DNA of 64,000 nt from the NCBI GenBank assembly GCA_937891465.1, contig CALAHF010000080.1:62001-126000 (forward strand), given 5' to 3'. Position 1 is the stretch's first letter. Each line of letters opens with the position of its first letter. Below the pieces are notes generated by a model. The model ran no database searches and was not told where the DNA came from. It was given only the letters and a program-made list of their open reading frames with translations. Position numbers and translations under genes: made by a program. This document shows positions 2,809 through 60,657 of this stretch, in pieces. Origin of the DNA: an uncultured Verrucomicrobiales bacterium (GTDB lineage Bacteria; Verrucomicrobiota; Verrucomicrobiia; Verrucomicrobiales; DEV007).

Positions 2809-3198
2809 ATGAGTAGTTTAAATAAAGTAATGCTGATGGGGAATCTCACACGGGATCCTGAATTGAAGGCCGTGAATGGAAAATCCAGCGTGTTGGAAAT
2901 GGGATTGGCGATCAATCGAACGATCAAGTCCGACAATGGAGAGTCACGGGAAGAAGTCACATTTGTCGATGTAACCGTGTGGGGCCGAACCGCCGAGAAC
3001 GTGGCGAAATACCTCGAAAAAGGAAGTTCCGCGCTCGTGGAAGGACGATTGCAATTCGATTCGTGGCAGGACAAAGCGACGGGCCAAAACCGAAGCAAAT
3101 TGCGTGTTGTCGCGGATTCCGTGCAGTTCCTCAGCTCACCAAAAGATGCGGGCGGCGAGCAACAGGCGCAGAATCAGAATTTTCAGCAAGCAGCCTGA
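2809..3198 (+). CDS. ssb: Single-stranded DNA-binding protein without acidic tip
   Basis: OB-fold protein that coats single-stranded DNA in replication and repair. SSLNKVMLMGNLTRDPELK, FVDVTVWGRTAENVAKYLEKGS and LVEGRLQFDSW follow the bacterial SSB pattern closely. The frame is open from 2773, but ATG 2809 gives the canonical N-terminus and 129 residues. After the OB fold there is only a short Gln/Asn-rich tail ending NQNFQQAA. The usual acidic DDDIPF-like tip that recruits partner proteins is missing. A dispersed palindromic repeat begins 12 bases after the stop. The gene may depend on the weak TTGCAT element at 2773. Confidence 0.93.
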   Translation: MSSLNKVMLMGNLTRDPELKAVNGKSSVLEMGLAINRTIKSDNGESREEVTFVDVTVWGRTAENVAKYLEKGSSALVEGRLQFDSWQDKATGQNRSKLRVVADSVQFLSSPKDAGGEQQAQNQNFQQAA

Positions 3199-3210: not shown

Positions 3211-3258
3211 TCGAATCAATAGGGTATGTTCGGCGAGATAACCCTGTTGCTTCGTGAA
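3211..3258 (-). repeat. Palindromic repeat copy A (54-bp family, inverted)
   Basis: AATAGGGTATG (from 3218) and AACCCTGTT (3240-3248) are the two stem arms. Reverse-complemented, the loop reads like other copies (CGAACATACCCTATTGATTCG), so this copy lies in the opposite orientation to most others. It sits between the convergent ssb and pyrC genes, 12 bases after the ssb stop. Confidence 0.8.
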
Positions 3259-7925: not shown

Positions 7926-7943
7926 TTTTTGATGTTTCCGAAC

Positions 7944-7982
7944 CAACCCTATCGATTCATTGAACAGACCCTCTTACTTCGA
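7944..7982 (+). repeat. Palindromic repeat copy B (degenerate)
   Basis: The right half, GATTCATTGAACAGACCCT then CTTACTTCG, aligns with copies D and H (GATTCATCGAACATACCCTGTTGATTC). The left stem arm is largely lost. It lies between two minus-strand genes, directly upstream of the small membrane protein. Confidence 0.5.
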
Positions 7983-13617: not shown

Positions 13618-13763
13618 CATGGCCTCCACCATTCCGCAGAATTGGGTAGGCTTCAAGAAGTGTCACGATCAAATAGTAGAATATGACCGGCGATACCGCC
13701 TGACAAAACCCCATCTAATCGCGACAACGTTTTCACTGAAATTCAACGAGTTCGCCCCGACGC

Positions 13764-13863
13764 GATTTAGTAGGGTGCGTTCATCGAACGGACCCTATTG
13801 ATTCGTAACACCATTTCGATCGAACAGGGTTGATTCGTGGAGCATACCCTGTTGATTCGTAAA
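13764..13863 (+). repeat. Palindromic repeat copy C (two tandem 54-bp units)
   Basis: Unit 1 has TAGGGTGCG / GGACCCTATTG around TTCATCGAAC. Unit 2 has ACAGGGTTG / ATACCCTGTTG around ATTCGTGGAGC. The AGGGT words start at 13772 and 13826, exactly 54 bases apart. The array lies between the divergent M42-like peptidase and FAD oxidoreductase genes and ends at the start codon of the latter. The remaining 13618-13763 shows nothing recognisable. Confidence 0.85.
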
Positions 13864-19402: not shown

Positions 19403-19483
19403 ATACGAACGCACCCTATTGATTCGTGGAGGCTTTTCGAAGCAACAGGGTTGATTCATCGAACATACCCTGTTGATTCATGG
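19403..19483 (+). repeat. Palindromic repeat copy D (half plus full 54-bp unit)
   Basis: A right half (CGAACGCACCCTATTGATTCG) is followed by a full unit with AACAGGGTTG / ATACCCTGTTG around ATTCATCGAAC. The two ACCCT words start at 19413 and 19467, again 54 bases apart. It lies between the divergent lipoprotein and esterase genes, ending at the esterase start codon. Confidence 0.85.
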
Positions 19484-23534: not shown

Positions 23535-23578
23535 CGATATGATAGGGTTACTTTGTCGAACGGATAGTATTGGATCAA
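23535..23578 (+). repeat. Palindromic repeat copy E (degenerate, exapted)
   Basis: GATATGATAGGGTTAC, TTGTCGAACGG and TAGTATTGGATCAAAA align with copy J (GATCGAATAGGGTTGG, TCGTCGAACG, CCCTATTGGATCG). It contains the start codon ATG 23539 of the PhoD-like gene, so the first 13-15 codons derive from it. Confidence 0.7.
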
Positions 23579-26640: not shown

Positions 26641-26685
26641 ACGATCCAACAGGGTTGGTTCATCGAACGCACCCTGTTGGATCGT
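26641..26685 (+). repeat. Palindromic repeat copy F (perfect 15-bp stem)
   Basis: ACGATCCAACAGGGT (26641-26655) and ACCCTGTTGGATCGT (26671-26685) are exact reverse complements around TGGTTCATCGAACGC. An A-run precedes and a T-rich GTTTTTT follows, so in RNA this would form a strong stem between the convergent adhesin fragment and the sodA gene and may end transcription on both strands. Confidence 0.88.
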
Positions 26686-31580: not shown

Positions 31581-31632
31581 GGTCCCGCTGTTGCGGAATC
31601 CTCAGACCGCTGGCGAGCCAGCTTACCGCCCT
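31581..31632 (+). repeat. Second palindromic repeat family, copy 1
   Basis: CTCAGACCGCTGGC, GAGCCAGCTTACCGCCCT: the core contains the palindrome GCTGGC-GA-GCCAGC. The same 32-base core occurs, inverted, at 60545-60577 (about 30 of 32 identical). At both sites it lies directly before a unit of the 54-bp family. It follows the kinase stop. Confidence 0.75.
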
Positions 31633-31702
31633 GTCTGTTCGAAAGGGTGTTTCGATCCAATAGGGTTGGTTTATTGAACGAACCCCGTTGCTTCGTGAGA
31701 GC
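31626..31702 (+). repeat. Palindromic repeat copy G (half plus full unit)
   Basis: CCCTGTCTGTTCGAAAGGG and TGTTTCGATCCAATAGGG continue into TTGGTTTATTGAACGAACC and CCGTTGCTTCGTGAGAGCC. The first segment matches that in copy H (CTGTCTGTTCGAAAAGCC). It lies between the convergent kinase and Wza-like genes and is directly preceded by the second repeat family. Confidence 0.8.
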
Positions 31703-40931: not shown

Positions 40932-41037
40932 CATGAATCAACAGGGGTGCTTCATCGAACAGACTCTGTCTGTTCGAAAAGCCGTTTCGATCCAATAGGG
41001 TCTATTCGTCGAACGTACCCTATTGATTCGTGGGAGC
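40932..41037 (+). repeat. Palindromic repeat copy H (two tandem 54-bp units)
   Basis: Unit 1: AACAGGGGTGC...TTCATCGAACAGACTCTG; unit 2: CGTTTCGATCCAATAGGG...TCTATTCGTCGAACGTACC, then TATTGATTCGTGGGAGCC. AGGG words at 40943 and 40997 are exactly 54 bases apart. It lies between dnaN and the frameshifted phosphotransferase. Confidence 0.87.
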
Positions 41038-41622: not shown

Positions 41623-42135
41623 ATGAAGCATACTTTTAACGTCACAGTTTCGCAGCACGACGCTGATGTTACTCTCCGGCGATTCCTCTTCCGTGGAGCC
41701 GGATGGGGCTTGTTGTTCGCCGTTCTATTTTGCATTGCCTACGTGATTCATGATGGACTCAATGGCGGCATTGGTGCTCTCGGTATCGTGATTATTACCG
41801 TTCTTTTTCTTCTGGTCACCACCTACGTTGCGGCGTTCGCAATTCGTCGAAAGCAAACTGCAGAGCTTTTAAAGCGCTTGGATGGTTCTCCTATTTCATA
41901 TCAGCTGGACGACTCTGAGCTAAGTGCGACATCGGCGCTCGGCAGTTCGATATTAAAATGGGAGATGATCCAGAAGCTGTGGATTGATCCTGATCTTACA
42001 ATGGTCTTCTACACATGGAATGGATACACAACCATCCCAACCTCTCAGATTCCCGCTGAGGCATTGGATTTCCTCGTTGGTCAAGTGGAGGGGGCTGGTG
42101 GCTCGGTTGTCGACAACAAAACCGCTAGGACATAA
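41623..42135 (+). CDS. YcxB-like membrane protein
   Basis: 170 residues from ATG 41623. MKHTFNVTVSQHDADVTLRRFLFR leads into two membrane segments (GWGLLFAVLFCIAYVIHDGL and ALGIVIITVLFLLVTTYVAAFAI). The cytoplasmic C-terminal half, LSATSALGSSILKWEMIQKLWIDPDLTMVFYTWNGYTTIPTSQIP, is the typical YcxB-like domain with WEMIQK and IPTSQIP. Function unknown for the family. The 3' end overlaps the convergent DUF1501 gene by 11 bases. The upstream codons to 41572 overlap the pseudogene end. Confidence 0.78.
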   Translation: MKHTFNVTVSQHDADVTLRRFLFRGAGWGLLFAVLFCIAYVIHDGLNGGIGALGIVIITVLFLLVTTYVAAFAIRRKQTAELLKRLDGSPISYQLDDSELSATSALGSSILKWEMIQKLWIDPDLTMVFYTWNGYTTIPTSQIPAEALDFLVGQVEGAGGSVVDNKTART

Positions 42136-43603
42136 TTCCTTTGACCAAATGTCCATGAACATCGGTGAGGCGGAAATAGCGGCCCTGAAAACGATAACTA
42201 AGTTTTTCATGATCGATCCCCAGTAGGTGAAGCATCGTGGCATGCAGATCATGCACGTGAACAGGATCTTCGGTGATGTTGTAGCTGAAGTCGTCAGTCG
42301 CGCCATGGACATGGCCGCGTTTGATTCCGGCACCGGTCATCCAGAGTGAAAAGCAACGCGGGTGGTGATCGCGCCCGTAATTTTCCTTGGTCAATTTTCC
42401 CTGACAATACGAAGTGCGACCGAATTCTCCGCCCCAGACGATCAAGGTGTCGTCGAGCATGCCGCGCTGTTTCAAGTCTTTCACCAAGGCGGCAGATGCC
42501 TGATCGGTGTCGCGACACTGGCCTGAAAGCTGAGTCGGCAACGAAAAGTGCTGATCCCAACCCATGTGATACAGCTGAATGAATCGGACGTCGCGTTCCG
42601 CCATACGGCGAGCCAACAGACAATTGTAGGCGTATGATCCGCGATTCATCACGTCGGGACCATACATATCGAGAATGTGCTGCGGCTCGTCGGAAAAGTC
42701 TGTTAGCTCCGGCACGGAGGTTTGCATGCGGAAGGCCATTTCGTATTGCTGAATCCGCGTATTGATCTCGGGATCACCAAACTCTTCGAGCTTTTTGGCG
42801 TTCATTTTTTCGAGATCATCGAGCATGCGACGACGTGCCGTGGCGTCGAATCCATCCGGATTATTCAAATATAAAACGGGATCACCCACGCTCATGAACT
42901 TTACTCCGGCGTGTTGGGTCGGTAAAAAGCCGGAGCCCCACAACCGATCGTAAAGCGGCTGACAATTCGGCCGGCCGGTTCCGCGAGAGACCATTGCGAT
43001 AAATGATGGCAGATCGTCGGTCATCGAACCGAGTCCGTAGTTTAGCCATGACCCCATGCTCGGGCGACCCGCCAGCTGATGTCCGGTTTGGAAAAACGTG
43101 ATTGCCGGATCGTGATTGATCGCTTCGGTGTGCATCGATCGGATCAGGCACATCTCATCCGCGATCCCCGAAATGTTTGGCAGCAGCTCGCTGATTTCGA
43201 TTCCCGCTTCCCCGTGTTTTTCAAATTTATACTTTGTCCCCGCGAGCGGAAACGCTTTCTGGTTCGCGGTCATGCCCGTGAGGCGTTGAGTCATTTCAAA
43301 GTGATCCCGCATGTCCTCGCCAAAATGCTCCTGCAGTTTCGGTTTGTGATCGAACAAATCCTGCTGCGACGGCGCTCCGCTTTGGAACATGTAAATCACC
43401 CGCTTCGCCTTCGGTGGGGTGTGATATTCCTTCATCGTGCCGTTCGGCTTCGGAATATCACCGTCCTTTTCCTCCGCACCGATCAAATCCCGATCCAGCA
43501 ACGTCGAAAGCGCCGCTCCACCAATTCCGGTCGCGGTTTTGCCGAAAAAATTACGGCGCGTGTCCAGCATCTTGTTATCAAAAACGGGGCGTTCGGTGTT
43601 CAT
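42125..43603 (-). CDS. DUF1501 protein, Tat-exported (paralogue 2)
   Basis: 492 residues. DTRRNFFGKTATGIGGAALSTLL is a twin-arginine signal. KRVIYMFQSGAPSQQDLFDHKPKL, RPSMGSWLNYGLGS, LIVWGGEFGRTSYCQG and GRDHHPRCFSLWMTGAGIKRG are the DUF1501 landmarks, related to the alkaline phosphatase/sulfatase superfamily, with possible metal ligands in GRDHHP. ATG at 43603 or 43570 may start. It is the second DUF1501 copy in the operon, about 35-40% like the upstream copy by eye, 78 bases downstream. With the DUF1549/1553 cytochrome it forms the common PVC gene pair of unknown function. Confidence 0.92.
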   Translation of the reverse strand: MNTERPVFDNKMLDTRRNFFGKTATGIGGAALSTLLDRDLIGAEEKDGDIPKPNGTMKEYHTPPKAKRVIYMFQSGAPSQQDLFDHKPKLQEHFGEDMRDHFEMTQRLTGMTANQKAFPLAGTKYKFEKHGEAGIEISELLPNISGIADEMCLIRSMHTEAINHDPAITFFQTGHQLAGRPSMGSWLNYGLGSMTDDLPSFIAMVSRGTGRPNCQPLYDRLWGSGFLPTQHAGVKFMSVGDPVLYLNNPDGFDATARRRMLDDLEKMNAKKLEEFGDPEINTRIQQYEMAFRMQTSVPELTDFSDEPQHILDMYGPDVMNRGSYAYNCLLARRMAERDVRFIQLYHMGWDQHFSLPTQLSGQCRDTDQASAALVKDLKQRGMLDDTLIVWGGEFGRTSYCQGKLTKENYGRDHHPRCFSLWMTGAGIKRGHVHGATDDFSYNITEDPVHVHDLHATMLHLLGIDHEKLSYRFQGRYFRLTDVHGHLVKGIMS

Positions 43604-43681: not shown

Positions 43682-45076
43682 CTACGCCAAGATTCCTCGA
43701 ATCACTCTGGCTTTTTCAACGCCAGTGAGCCGCATGTCGAGGCCCTGAAAGGGAAAGCTGAATCGGTTGGAATGAATTCCCAACTGATGCAGCATCGTTG
43801 CGTGAAGGTCACGCACGTGAACGACATCGTTGACGGCATGGTAGCCAAGCTCGTCGGTTTCACCATAGCTGGTTCCGCCTTTGATGCCGCCTCCAGCCAT
43901 CCACATGGAAAATCCTTTGATGTGATGATCGCGACCAGGGCCACCTTTTCCCTGAAACATCGGGGTGCGGCCGAATTCTCCGCCCCACACAACGAGAGTG
44001 TCTTCCAGCATCCCGCGCTCTTTGAGGTCAGAAATAAGTGCAGCGGTTGGCTGATCGGTGAGTCCGCAGCAGATGTCCATGTATTTGGCGAGGTCTCCGT
44101 GGTGATCCCAACCGCGGTGATACAACTGGATGAATCGGACGCCGCGTTCGGCCAAACGCCGGGCGAGCAAGCAATTTGAAGCGTAGGAGCCATCGCCTGG
44201 TTCAGCGCCGTAGGACTCGAGGACGTGTTTGGGTTCGTTGGAAATATCCATCAAATCCGGAACCGAGGTCTGCATCTTGAACGCCATTTCGTAAGCAGCG
44301 AGGCGGGTATCGATTTCCGGGTTGGCGACTTGCGCGTTTCGTTTTCGGTCAAGCTTTTGGATAGCGTCAATCAGCGCGGCTTGTTGCTTCGAAGAAACGC
44401 CTTTTGGATTTCGAACGTAGTGAACGGGATCTCCTGAAGAATTGAATTCCACACCTTGAAATCGGCTTGGCAAAAATCCGGCGGCCCACTGACGCGACGC
44501 GATCGGCTGAGGATTGCGTCCGCCGACGCTGGTGAGAACGACGAAGCCGGGAAGGTCTTCAGTTTCTGAACCGAGGCCATAAGTTACCCATGATCCCATT
44601 GACGGCCGCCCGCTGACTGCGGTGCCGGTATTCATGAACGTGTGAGCCGGGTCGTGATTGATCTGTTCGGTTACCATAGAGCGGACGACTGCGATATCGT
44701 CTGCGATTTTGGCGGTGTGAGGCAGGTAATCACTGATGAACTGGCCGCTCTTTCCGTGCTGCTTAAATTTGGTAAGGTGTCCCTGAACTTTTAGTTCTTT
44801 CCCTTGAAGTTGAGCGATCGGCTGTCCGTCGGTGAAGGACGTGGGCATGGGTTTCCCATTAAGTTGGTCCAGTTTCGGTTTGTAATCGTACGTCTCTAAG
44901 TGGGAAGGGCCACCGGCCATGCAGAGAAAAATTACGCGTTTCGCTTTGGCAGCAAAGTGCGGTAGCGCATCGGCAGCCGATGCGTTTGCGAGGCTGGAGA
45001 ATGCGGCGGAGCCAAGGCTGAGTCCGGCTTGACCGAGGAAATTACGACGCGAGGGAAAAATAGGATGGGTCGTCAT
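43682..45076 (-). CDS. DUF1501 protein, Tat-exported (paralogue 1)
   Basis: 464 residues. PSRRNFLGQAGLSLGSAAFSSLANASA is a twin-arginine signal. KRVIFLCMAGGPSHLETYDYKPKL, RPSMGSWVTYGLGSETEDL, LVVWGGEFGRTPMFQ and GRDHHIKGFSMWMAGGGIKGG show the same blocks as its neighbour. It starts 3 bases from the stop of the DUF1549/DUF1553 gene and must share its transcript. In this family the folded protein is thought to leave by Tat because it binds a cofactor or metal; the reaction is unknown. Confidence 0.94.
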   Translation of the reverse strand: MTTHPIFPSRRNFLGQAGLSLGSAAFSSLANASAADALPHFAAKAKRVIFLCMAGGPSHLETYDYKPKLDQLNGKPMPTSFTDGQPIAQLQGKELKVQGHLTKFKQHGKSGQFISDYLPHTAKIADDIAVVRSMVTEQINHDPAHTFMNTGTAVSGRPSMGSWVTYGLGSETEDLPGFVVLTSVGGRNPQPIASRQWAAGFLPSRFQGVEFNSSGDPVHYVRNPKGVSSKQQAALIDAIQKLDRKRNAQVANPEIDTRLAAYEMAFKMQTSVPDLMDISNEPKHVLESYGAEPGDGSYASNCLLARRLAERGVRFIQLYHRGWDHHGDLAKYMDICCGLTDQPTAALISDLKERGMLEDTLVVWGGEFGRTPMFQGKGGPGRDHHIKGFSMWMAGGGIKGGTSYGETDELGYHAVNDVVHVRDLHATMLHQLGIHSNRFSFPFQGLDMRLTGVEKARVIRGILA

Positions 45077-47641: not shown

Positions 47642-48571
47642 TTAGCTACCAAAAGCATACTTCCCATCTTTCACCGAGGTATTAGGCGGCAATTTCATCA
47701 TTTCGAAGTAGTCGTAGCCCTCTTTCAGATTTCCCCAAAACTCGAGCCATTTGCCTTTCTTTTTAAATTCCTGATTCATGCGCGAATCGGTCATCCGGAA
47801 CGGGAAAGCGTGAACTCGAAAGTATTTCTGCCCGTCTCCGAGAGCCGCAGCGACGAGGGTGTAAATTTCTTCCATCCGGATGTCGGTCATCGCGTAGCAC
47901 CCAGCGGAAACGCAATTTCCGTGAACCATCAAAAAGGTTCCCATTCGACCGTGATAAGTGTCGTATTCATTGGGAAACCCGAGATCAAAGGACAGGTGAA
48001 ACTGACTATTGGGATTCATCCGACTTGGCGGCACGTAATAGAATCCTTCCGGAGCCTGACGATCGCCTTCTTTCAATTTGGGGCCCGGTTTTCCAGAAAA
48101 AGCACAAATTTCGAACGTTTTGAAGAGTTCATACTCGGTTTTTCCATCCCCAAGCATCCACACTTCGAGTTCCGCTTCTTCTTTGAAAATCCGAACAAAT
48201 ACGGGGTCGCCCATTTTTAATCCGAGCGCCCTCAATTCAGGATTCAAAATCGGGGCGACGCGGGCAGCCGCAGTTTTTGCGCGGGCGCTGGTGGCTAATC
48301 CTTTGCCAACGAGAATAGCGGCAGGTGAATCGGAAGGGGCTGTCGAAAAGCTGGAGCGGGCGGCCGGGCTGCTGTCAGTAGAAAACCAATCGCGAACGGC
48401 AGCGAGAGTTTTCGATCCAATAGGGCTGGTTCTTCGAACAGACGCAGTTGCGTCGTGAGAGCTGGCCGAAACAGAGGTTCCGTTTTGCTGCATGTGGTCC
48501 TGAACGATCCACGGAAGGGATGCCGCGATCGCCAACACTACGATTCCAAAAAATGCCCGTATAACTTTCAT
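47642..48571 (-). CDS. L,D-transpeptidase (YafK-like) with repeat-encoded insert
   Basis: Murein cross-linking enzyme or lipoprotein-attaching transpeptidase, 309 residues. KVIRAFFGIVVLAIAASLPWIV is an N-terminal membrane segment. The catalytic domain (about 125-290) ends with MVHGNCVSAGCYAMTD, the HGxxxxxGC-type site with the active cysteine, as in YafK/ErfK proteins. Residues about 37-55 (SHDATASVRRTSPIGSKTL), in the low-complexity linker, are encoded by copy I of the 54-bp repeat, in frame and without stops. The linker tolerates it. Divergent from mtnP. Confidence 0.87.
   Translation of the reverse strand: MKVIRAFFGIVVLAIAASLPWIVQDHMQQNGTSVSASSHDATASVRRTSPIGSKTLAAVRDWFSTDSSPAARSSFSTAPSDSPAAILVGKGLATSARAKTAAARVAPILNPELRALGLKMGDPVFVRIFKEEAELEVWMLGDGKTEYELFKTFEICAFSGKPGPKLKEGDRQAPEGFYYVPPSRMNPNSQFHLSFDLGFPNEYDTYHGRMGTFLMVHGNCVSAGCYAMTDIRMEEIYTLVAAALGDGQKYFRVHAFPFRMTDSRMNQEFKKKGKWLEFWGNLKEGYDYFEMMKLPPNTSVKDGKYAFGS
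48409..48462 (+). repeat. Palindromic repeat copy I, inside a coding sequence
   Basis: TTTTCGATCCAATAGGG, CTGGTTCTTCGAACAGACG and CAGTTGCGTCGTGAGAGC align over 54 bases with copies G and H (about 9 differences from G over 49 bases). The gene is on the minus strand; the copy is in frame and adds 18 codons. This is direct evidence that the unit inserts in genes. Confidence 0.87.
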
Positions 48572-52094: not shown

Positions 52095-52142
52095 ACGATC
52101 GAATAGGGTTGGTTCGTCGAACGTACCCTATTGGATCGTGGA
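52095..52142 (+). repeat. Palindromic repeat copy J
   Basis: ACGATCGAATAGGGT (52095-52109) and ACCCTATTGGATCGT (52125-52139) pair with one mismatch around TGGTTCGTCGAACGT, whose inner part GTTCG-T-CGAAC also pairs. It begins one base after the stop codon of the Smr gene and lies in the rpsB leader region. Confidence 0.87.
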
Positions 52143-60541: not shown

Positions 60542-60600
60542 AACGGGCGGAAAGCTGGCTTGCCAGCGGTCTGAGGACAGCCGGGAACGGCTCCGCAGGA
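60542..60600 (-). repeat. Second palindromic repeat family, copy 2
   Basis: GGGCGGAAAGCTGGCTTGCC and AGCGGTCTGAGGACAGCC: the core (60545-60577) is the reverse complement of that at 31599-31632. It also lies directly before a 54-bp-family unit (K). It follows the fusion gene stop by 11 bases. Confidence 0.75.
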
Positions 60601-60612
60601 TCGCCCATTTGA

Positions 60613-60657
60613 AATAAACAGGGTTGGTTCGATGAATCAACCCTGTTGTTTCGTGGA
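60613..60657 (-). repeat. Palindromic repeat copy K (inverted)
   Basis: AAACAGGGTTGG and AACCCTGTTGTTTCG enclose TTCGATGAATC. The loop is the reverse complement of the usual TTCATCGAA, so this copy is inverted relative to most. It sits between convergent genes, next to the second repeat family. Confidence 0.83.

Follow-up and report, generated by a model that had tools for sequence, protein, structure and literature searches.

How does a copy of a dispersed palindromic repeat come to lie in frame within the gene of a conserved enzyme, and is insertion the event that placed it there? The question is raised by a locus in the 5.97-Mb draft genome (G000) of an uncultured member of the Verrucomicrobiales whose nearest named relatives are Akkermansiaceae. 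Within the stretch of this genome that was analysed, a window of 64,000 nucleotides, 11 copies of 53 nt constitute one repeat family, and a copy of 53-54 bp at 48410-48462, which shares 83% identity with the copy at 31650, is located wholly within an open reading frame of 309 codons, where it covers approximately residues 37-54 and contributes no stop codon. The gene and the parts of the copy are as follows.

47642-48571, minus strand: gene of a YafK/DpaA-like L,D-transpeptidase (YkuD fold), 309 aa, assigned by NCBIfam, Foldseek and orthologues.
47651-48280, minus strand: conserved catalytic domain, residues 98-307 (AlphaFold2 model, NF040599 match).
48299-48571, minus strand: membrane segment and linker, residues 1-91, containing the element (AlphaFold2 pLDDT below 50).
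48413-48455, minus strand: 43-bp repeat core, translated within ...SHDATASVRRTSPIGSK... (28.4 bits with the covariance model; 43.4 bits for the orthologous copy in G001).
48413-48433, plus strand: first 21-bp unit, CGATCCAATAGGGCTGGTTCT, well preserved (weight-matrix score 20.4).
48435-48455, minus strand: second 21-bp unit, CGACGCAACTGCGTCTGTTCG, with a changed core, starting 22 bp after the first (weight-matrix score 8.8, near the threshold).

The identity of the host gene is well supported, since its product matches the NCBIfam model NF040599 (LdtF_DpaA_YafK) over residues 98-307 with an E value of 4.7e-66, albeit below the equivalog cut-off, and its nearest solved structure and top Foldseek match is DpaA (8ikr; E 4.3e-23, 44% identity). 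The catalytic HG...SxGC signature of the YkuD fold is present as HGNCVSAGC. While the catalytic domain thus resembles that of YafK/DpaA (LdtF), the peptidoglycan-DAP-protein amidase, the host protein differs by a long disordered linker at its N-terminus, which carries the element. In the AlphaFold2 model the catalytic domain is confidently predicted from about residue 95 onwards and the residues of the element (37-54) belong to the low-confidence linker, in agreement with the original prediction, which had placed the copy between membrane segment and catalytic domain.

The copy is a real, though diverged, member of the family. A covariance model built from 74 copies of two genomes, all of them intergenic, recovers its core with an E value of 2.4e-7 in a search of the window, and a 44-base probe of the copy found no chance match in 100 shuffles; hence, the predicted in-frame position of a repeat copy in an L,D-transpeptidase gene holds, the frame being open throughout. 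On the other hand, the anatomy had been misjudged: the conserved core measures 43 bp, the figure of 54 bp reflecting how far double copies are spaced, and the peptide quoted as 18 residues consists of 19. Because one unit lacks its AGGG core, the copy ranks among the weaker ones, and with the second unit scoring near the threshold it could be argued that ordinary linker sequence merely resembles the repeat by chance. This explanation retains a negligible probability and is for practical purposes refuted by the orthologue in G001, the second of the two species that constitute the comparison within genus g1. This orthologue (64% identity) carries a better preserved element at the same position, which reaches 43.4 bits with an E value of 1.6e-12 in 115 kb. 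Since the same site is occupied in both species, the element is at least as old as their common ancestor.

Orthologues of the transpeptidase occur in 48 of the 57 relatives, and the element is absent from the gene in four orthologues of sister genera as well as in all others tested; two of these loci do contain a copy, but at a position away from the coding sequence. The same residues in the orthologue of a species devoid of the repeat family, which would speak against the original prediction, were not encountered for this gene, because the orthologue with these residues belongs to a species that has the family as well. In terms of length, the linker comprises 24 and 19 residues in the two proteins with the element and 32-38 in the sister-genus orthologues without it. 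By itself, this linker is too variable to serve as proof of anything, and the strong evidence on length derives from other genes.

Beyond the transpeptidase gene, the covariance model and a scan for single units located the following elements in the window.

3212-3254: two-unit intergenic element, separated by 14 bp from the end of the preceding gene (2830-3198; covariance model, unit scan).
7939-7981: weak intergenic element (covariance model, unit scan).
13763-13859: four-unit array, spacing 22-32-22 (unit scan).
19406-19480: three-unit array, spacing 32-22 (unit scan).
23535-23577: weak element, 23.1 bits (covariance model).
26642-26684: best copy of the window, 69 bits (covariance model).
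31653-31695: element (covariance model, unit scan).
40934-41030: four-unit array, spacing 22-32-22 (unit scan).
52096-52138: element (covariance model, unit scan).
60611-60653: element (covariance model, unit scan).

In 857 kb of G000, the single-unit scan detected 337 units in 158 arrays, which extrapolates to approximately 1,100 arrays per genome. A first DNA search had suggested a family limited to genus g1, but the covariance model then matched genus g12 in high copy as well as g2, with a few hits elsewhere. Rfam yielded no curated RNA family for the element, only a tRNA being found in the window. When orthologous intergenic regions of the two g1 genomes were compared, the one informative region measured 223 bp where it has a copy and 123 bp where the copy is degenerate. 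In addition, the window contains a 33-nt inverted pair of 94% complementarity (TCCTCAGACCGCTGGCGAGCCAGCTTACCGCCC) at 31599-31631 and 60545-60577, possibly a second dispersed repeat family.

The 43-bp palindrome is composed of two 21-bp near-palindromes, each with an asymmetric AGGG core; the unit consensus reads CGAACCAA-YAGGG-TTGGTTCG, and its counterpart in the sister genus g12 reads CGATCAAA-CAGGG-TTTGATCG. Spacing of these sequence-specific units is rigid: in the 857 kb of G000, neighbouring units are 22 bp apart in 139 pairs and 32 bp apart in 34, with every other spacing observed at most once, and 22-32-22 arrays, whose four units span 97 bp, occur 22 times. The seed model presupposed pairing at 22 bp, but neither the spacing of 32 bp nor the freedom of orientation. 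These distances correspond to 2.1 and 3.05 turns of B-DNA at 10.5 bp per turn, so that units placed at exactly 22 bp, and pairs joined at 32 bp, share one face of the DNA. By contrast, the orientation of the cores is free. Pairs at 22 bp are inverted in 90 and direct in 47 cases in G000, while in G012, the sample of genus g12 (L244-L283), direct pairs predominate (53 versus 22 inverted and 7 outward). Orientation has therefore changed between an inverted-rich and a direct-rich genus, and spacing has not.

Most arrays are intergenic and lie in the vicinity of gene ends, at a median of 29.5 bp downstream of the stop codon of the upstream gene, with a density of 0.75 per kb in divergent and 1.6 per kb in other intergenic regions. 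Their outward flanks are mostly TGAA, AAAA, TTTT or TAAA. Several genes are overlapped at their 3' ends by fixed lengths of 11, 17 or 25 nt (for example at L122:11330 and L144:8622), where the element apparently supplies the stop codon, as reported for REPs.

The position after stop codons, the T- or A-rich flanks and the depletion from divergent regions would suit transcript-end hairpins acting as terminators or 3' end stabilisers, with the copies in genes as side effects, and many copies indeed have strong predicted folds (-26 to -32 kcal/mol, z -5 to -9). Against such an element of RNA, covariation of the arms only slightly exceeds that of shuffles, the inner hairpin positions 4/40 and 5/39 do not pair in 31 of the 73 sequences, and the direct-orientation pairs that predominate in g12 are incapable of forming this hairpin. 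In its predicted fold, the in-gene copy of the window is no more stable than shuffled sequence (z -0.83). Since core orientation is free, hairpin pairing is not the conserved feature. A role of the RNA at gene ends is possible, whereas the little covariation together with the direct-orientation arrays weakens the hairpin as the conserved feature and renders it an improbable account of the family.

Copies within genes are not confined to the transpeptidase. Strong copies lie inside genes in 12 of 141 cases in G000, 9 of 66 in G001 and 16 of 77 in G012, counts that depend on a simple self-made hexamer gene caller applied to draft genomes; some copies near gene starts may result from wrongly placed start codons, and the models of two or three genes (e.g. 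L155 and L117) are doubtful. Approximately ten genes of the sampled genomes besides the transpeptidase gene contain copies translated in frame, which bears out the expectation that other protein genes hold them too; the orthologous frames are open in relatives, and two frames, TNQQGTFDEPTLLDR and STGSVQQTNPVGS, dominate the translations. Several of these sites are common to more than one species. A copy in the linker of a MobA-FdhD fusion protein (L170-L173) is common to G000, G001, G012 and G002, and thus to three genera; its codons are nearly identical across genera, and it is the best match of the element in the whole G002 genome. Copies in a 1058-aa protein with an MG2 domain are common to g1 and g12, and a copy in CysS to both g1 species, with a partial site in the CysS of G012. 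As to the CysS sites, the core of the left unit is flipped in both g1 species (L158, L159), and at the corresponding position of G012 (L160) two AACAGGGT cores point in the same direction. The final part of a weak element in a DUF1501 protein falls on an NPLAS motif, which element-free paralogues possess as well. The window itself harbours two adjacent DUF1501 paralogues (42125-43603 and 43682-45076) with DNA stretches of 73-78% identity, and beside them a DUF1549-type gene, as is typical of the phylum.

These genes allow the lengths of proteins with and without the element to be compared. Six genes were aligned and the segment was measured from the closest conserved column on one side of the element to that on the other, while two further genes of genus g12 were compared by BLAST alone; the element by itself encodes 14-15 residues, and 54 bp would encode 18. 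In the HEAT/DUF7133 gene, the segment comprises 18 residues with the element and 17-18 in nine homologues without it; in the FG-GAP gene, 19 and 18 versus 19 and 20; in CysS, 27 and 27 versus 19-32; and in MobA-FdhD, 22 in four proteins versus 19, 27 and 41. For the MG2 gene, the values are 23, 23 and 39 versus 22 and 15, so that it exceeds one of the two homologues lacking the element by 8 residues. The two g12 genes exceed their homologues by 8 and 2 residues, respectively. Hence, a gain of 14-18 residues occurred in none of the eight genes, and where the comparison is clearest the difference amounts to 0-1 residue. The statement that the transpeptidase copy adds 18 codons was a deduction which these lengths do not support, and the clean gap of 18 residues anticipated in orthologues is absent wherever the comparison could be applied. 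Moreover, in homologues that lack the element, this segment agrees with the motif no more than chance would allow (13-21 of 35 positions, with local null maxima of 18-26), the exception being the CysS of G012 with 23; apart from this partial site, they are therefore not recognisably decayed copies. Both observations favour sites that arose or were maintained in place, and the sequence comparisons suggest that the element occupies existing sequence of its host genes instead of lengthening the protein. An insertion accompanied by the deletion of about as many codons, or a filtering for length-neutral events, is also a possible fit.

Codon usage within the copies points to conservation of the DNA. 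Where orthologues share an identical residue, the identical codon is used in 7 of 8 cases inside the element versus 76 of 181 elsewhere in the transpeptidase gene (P 0.012), in 8 of 9 versus 87 of 173 in CysS (P 0.02), and in 12 of 14 versus 173 of 341 in MobA-FdhD (P 0.0075; 10 of 12 versus 107 of 266 in the comparison with G012, P 0.003), with a weaker result for the MG2 gene (P 0.07). The effect is modest for each gene and has the same direction in all four, although some bias may stem from the precondition that one genome has a copy that can be recognised.

Mobility is an alternative explanation. A non-autonomous palindromic element, similar to Rickettsia palindromic elements (RPEs) or to REPs mobilised by RAYT transposases, would have inserted in frame and would be tolerated because the added sequence is harmless and free of stops, while nearby deletions would compensate for its length. 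The high copy number, the multi-unit copies and their proximity to gene 3' ends are in keeping with this scenario, as is the fact that the repeat is open in all frames when its position 9 is C. G001 encodes a Y1 transposase (IS200-type; a single 240-aa protein, L108:8086-8808) and G000 a single decayed one with an internal stop (L107:2452-2754). However, neither of these genes, the only one found in each draft genome, is closely flanked by the element, and RAYT mobilisation was set aside since no repeat-flanked transposase was found in these drafts. In several other members of the bacterial family, such transposases number 10 to 36. The missing net gain of 14-18 residues (0 of 8 genes) counts against insertion as well, and a free core orientation at constant spacing is hard to obtain from a transposed hairpin. 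Overall, insertion of a mobile element appears unlikely, though clearly less so than a conserved RNA hairpin.

RPEs are palindromic repeats found between and inside the protein genes of Rickettsia, where many unrelated proteins contain them as segments read in frame (PMC10969869). The likeness to RPEs that had been proposed for the transpeptidase copy stands insofar as a palindrome is translated in frame inside protein genes, but does not extend to size or to net insertion: RPEs are elements of about 150 bp (100-150 bp) described as insertions, for which extra codons relative to element-free homologues would be expected, whereas the present family has a 43-bp core of 21-bp units (97 bp for four units) with rigid spacing, free orientation and, in eight genes, no lengthening equal to the element. 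DNA uptake sequences (DUS/USS) amount to about 1,000 sites per genome, some of them in genes with preferred peptides, and arise in place. The present family is comparable in abundance (~1,000) and in the presence of some sites in genes with preferred peptides but is much longer, and an uptake sequence was rejected since isolated core words show no clear enrichment outside arrays (26 sites; permuted words average 11 and reach at most 78). REPs and BIMEs are short palindromes of very high copy number near gene 3' ends, avoided between divergent genes and arranged as dimers or groups; intragenic REPs have been reported for several species, among them the verrucomicrobium Opitutus terrae, in the only relevant report on repeats of Verrucomicrobia that was found (PMC3733652). 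The present family shares the location downstream of genes and the rarity in divergent regions, but lacks the GTAG or CGTC end tag of the REP superfamilies, shows no REP-flanked RAYT in the two draft genomes, and differs in the free unit orientation at 22/32-bp spacing and in its length neutrality in genes. It therefore constitutes a family of REP-like intragenic repeats, in which the location pattern of REPs is combined with a new unit anatomy and length neutrality.

A fixed helical spacing combined with a free core orientation is what cooperative protein binding would be expected to produce, and is not something that a conserved hairpin would call for. On the basis of this pattern and the low covariation, the arrays are most readily read as REP-like, genome-wide DNA sites for a putative binding protein, a reading to which a probability of about one half is assigned and which is preferred over a mobile element and an RNA hairpin. 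The putative protein would bind the arrays, phased at 22 and 32 bp, cooperatively as DNA, and selection would act on the DNA of the array. In regions encoding tolerant linkers, a site may form or be kept in place, through substitution or through replacement by a segment of equal length, and would then be translated without lengthening the protein. The transpeptidase site predates the split of the two known g1 species, is nearly intact in G001 and half-decayed in the genome of the window, and encodes a stretch of the predicted disordered linker, which would have no catalytic role. Formation through substitution alone is demanding, as about 35 defined bases would have to arise within a gene; nevertheless, binding sites formed or kept in place probably fit the data better than insertions of the Rickettsia type.

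The usual explanation for palindromes in genes is that selfish DNA has inserted without doing harm. In the present family, existing codons appear to be occupied, the sites are common across genera, and the units keep a fixed helical spacing. A comparison of length with homologues provides a general check for claims of intragenic REPs. Tentatively, the Verrucomicrobiales may possess an undescribed system of about 1,000 arrays of phased 21-bp sites per genome, which a putative reader protein would recognise and which would shape the linkers of conserved enzymes in place. If a protein does read these arrays, they would represent a large unrecognised chromosomal site system in the Verrucomicrobiota, in which a DNA signal dictates part of the sequence of proteins.
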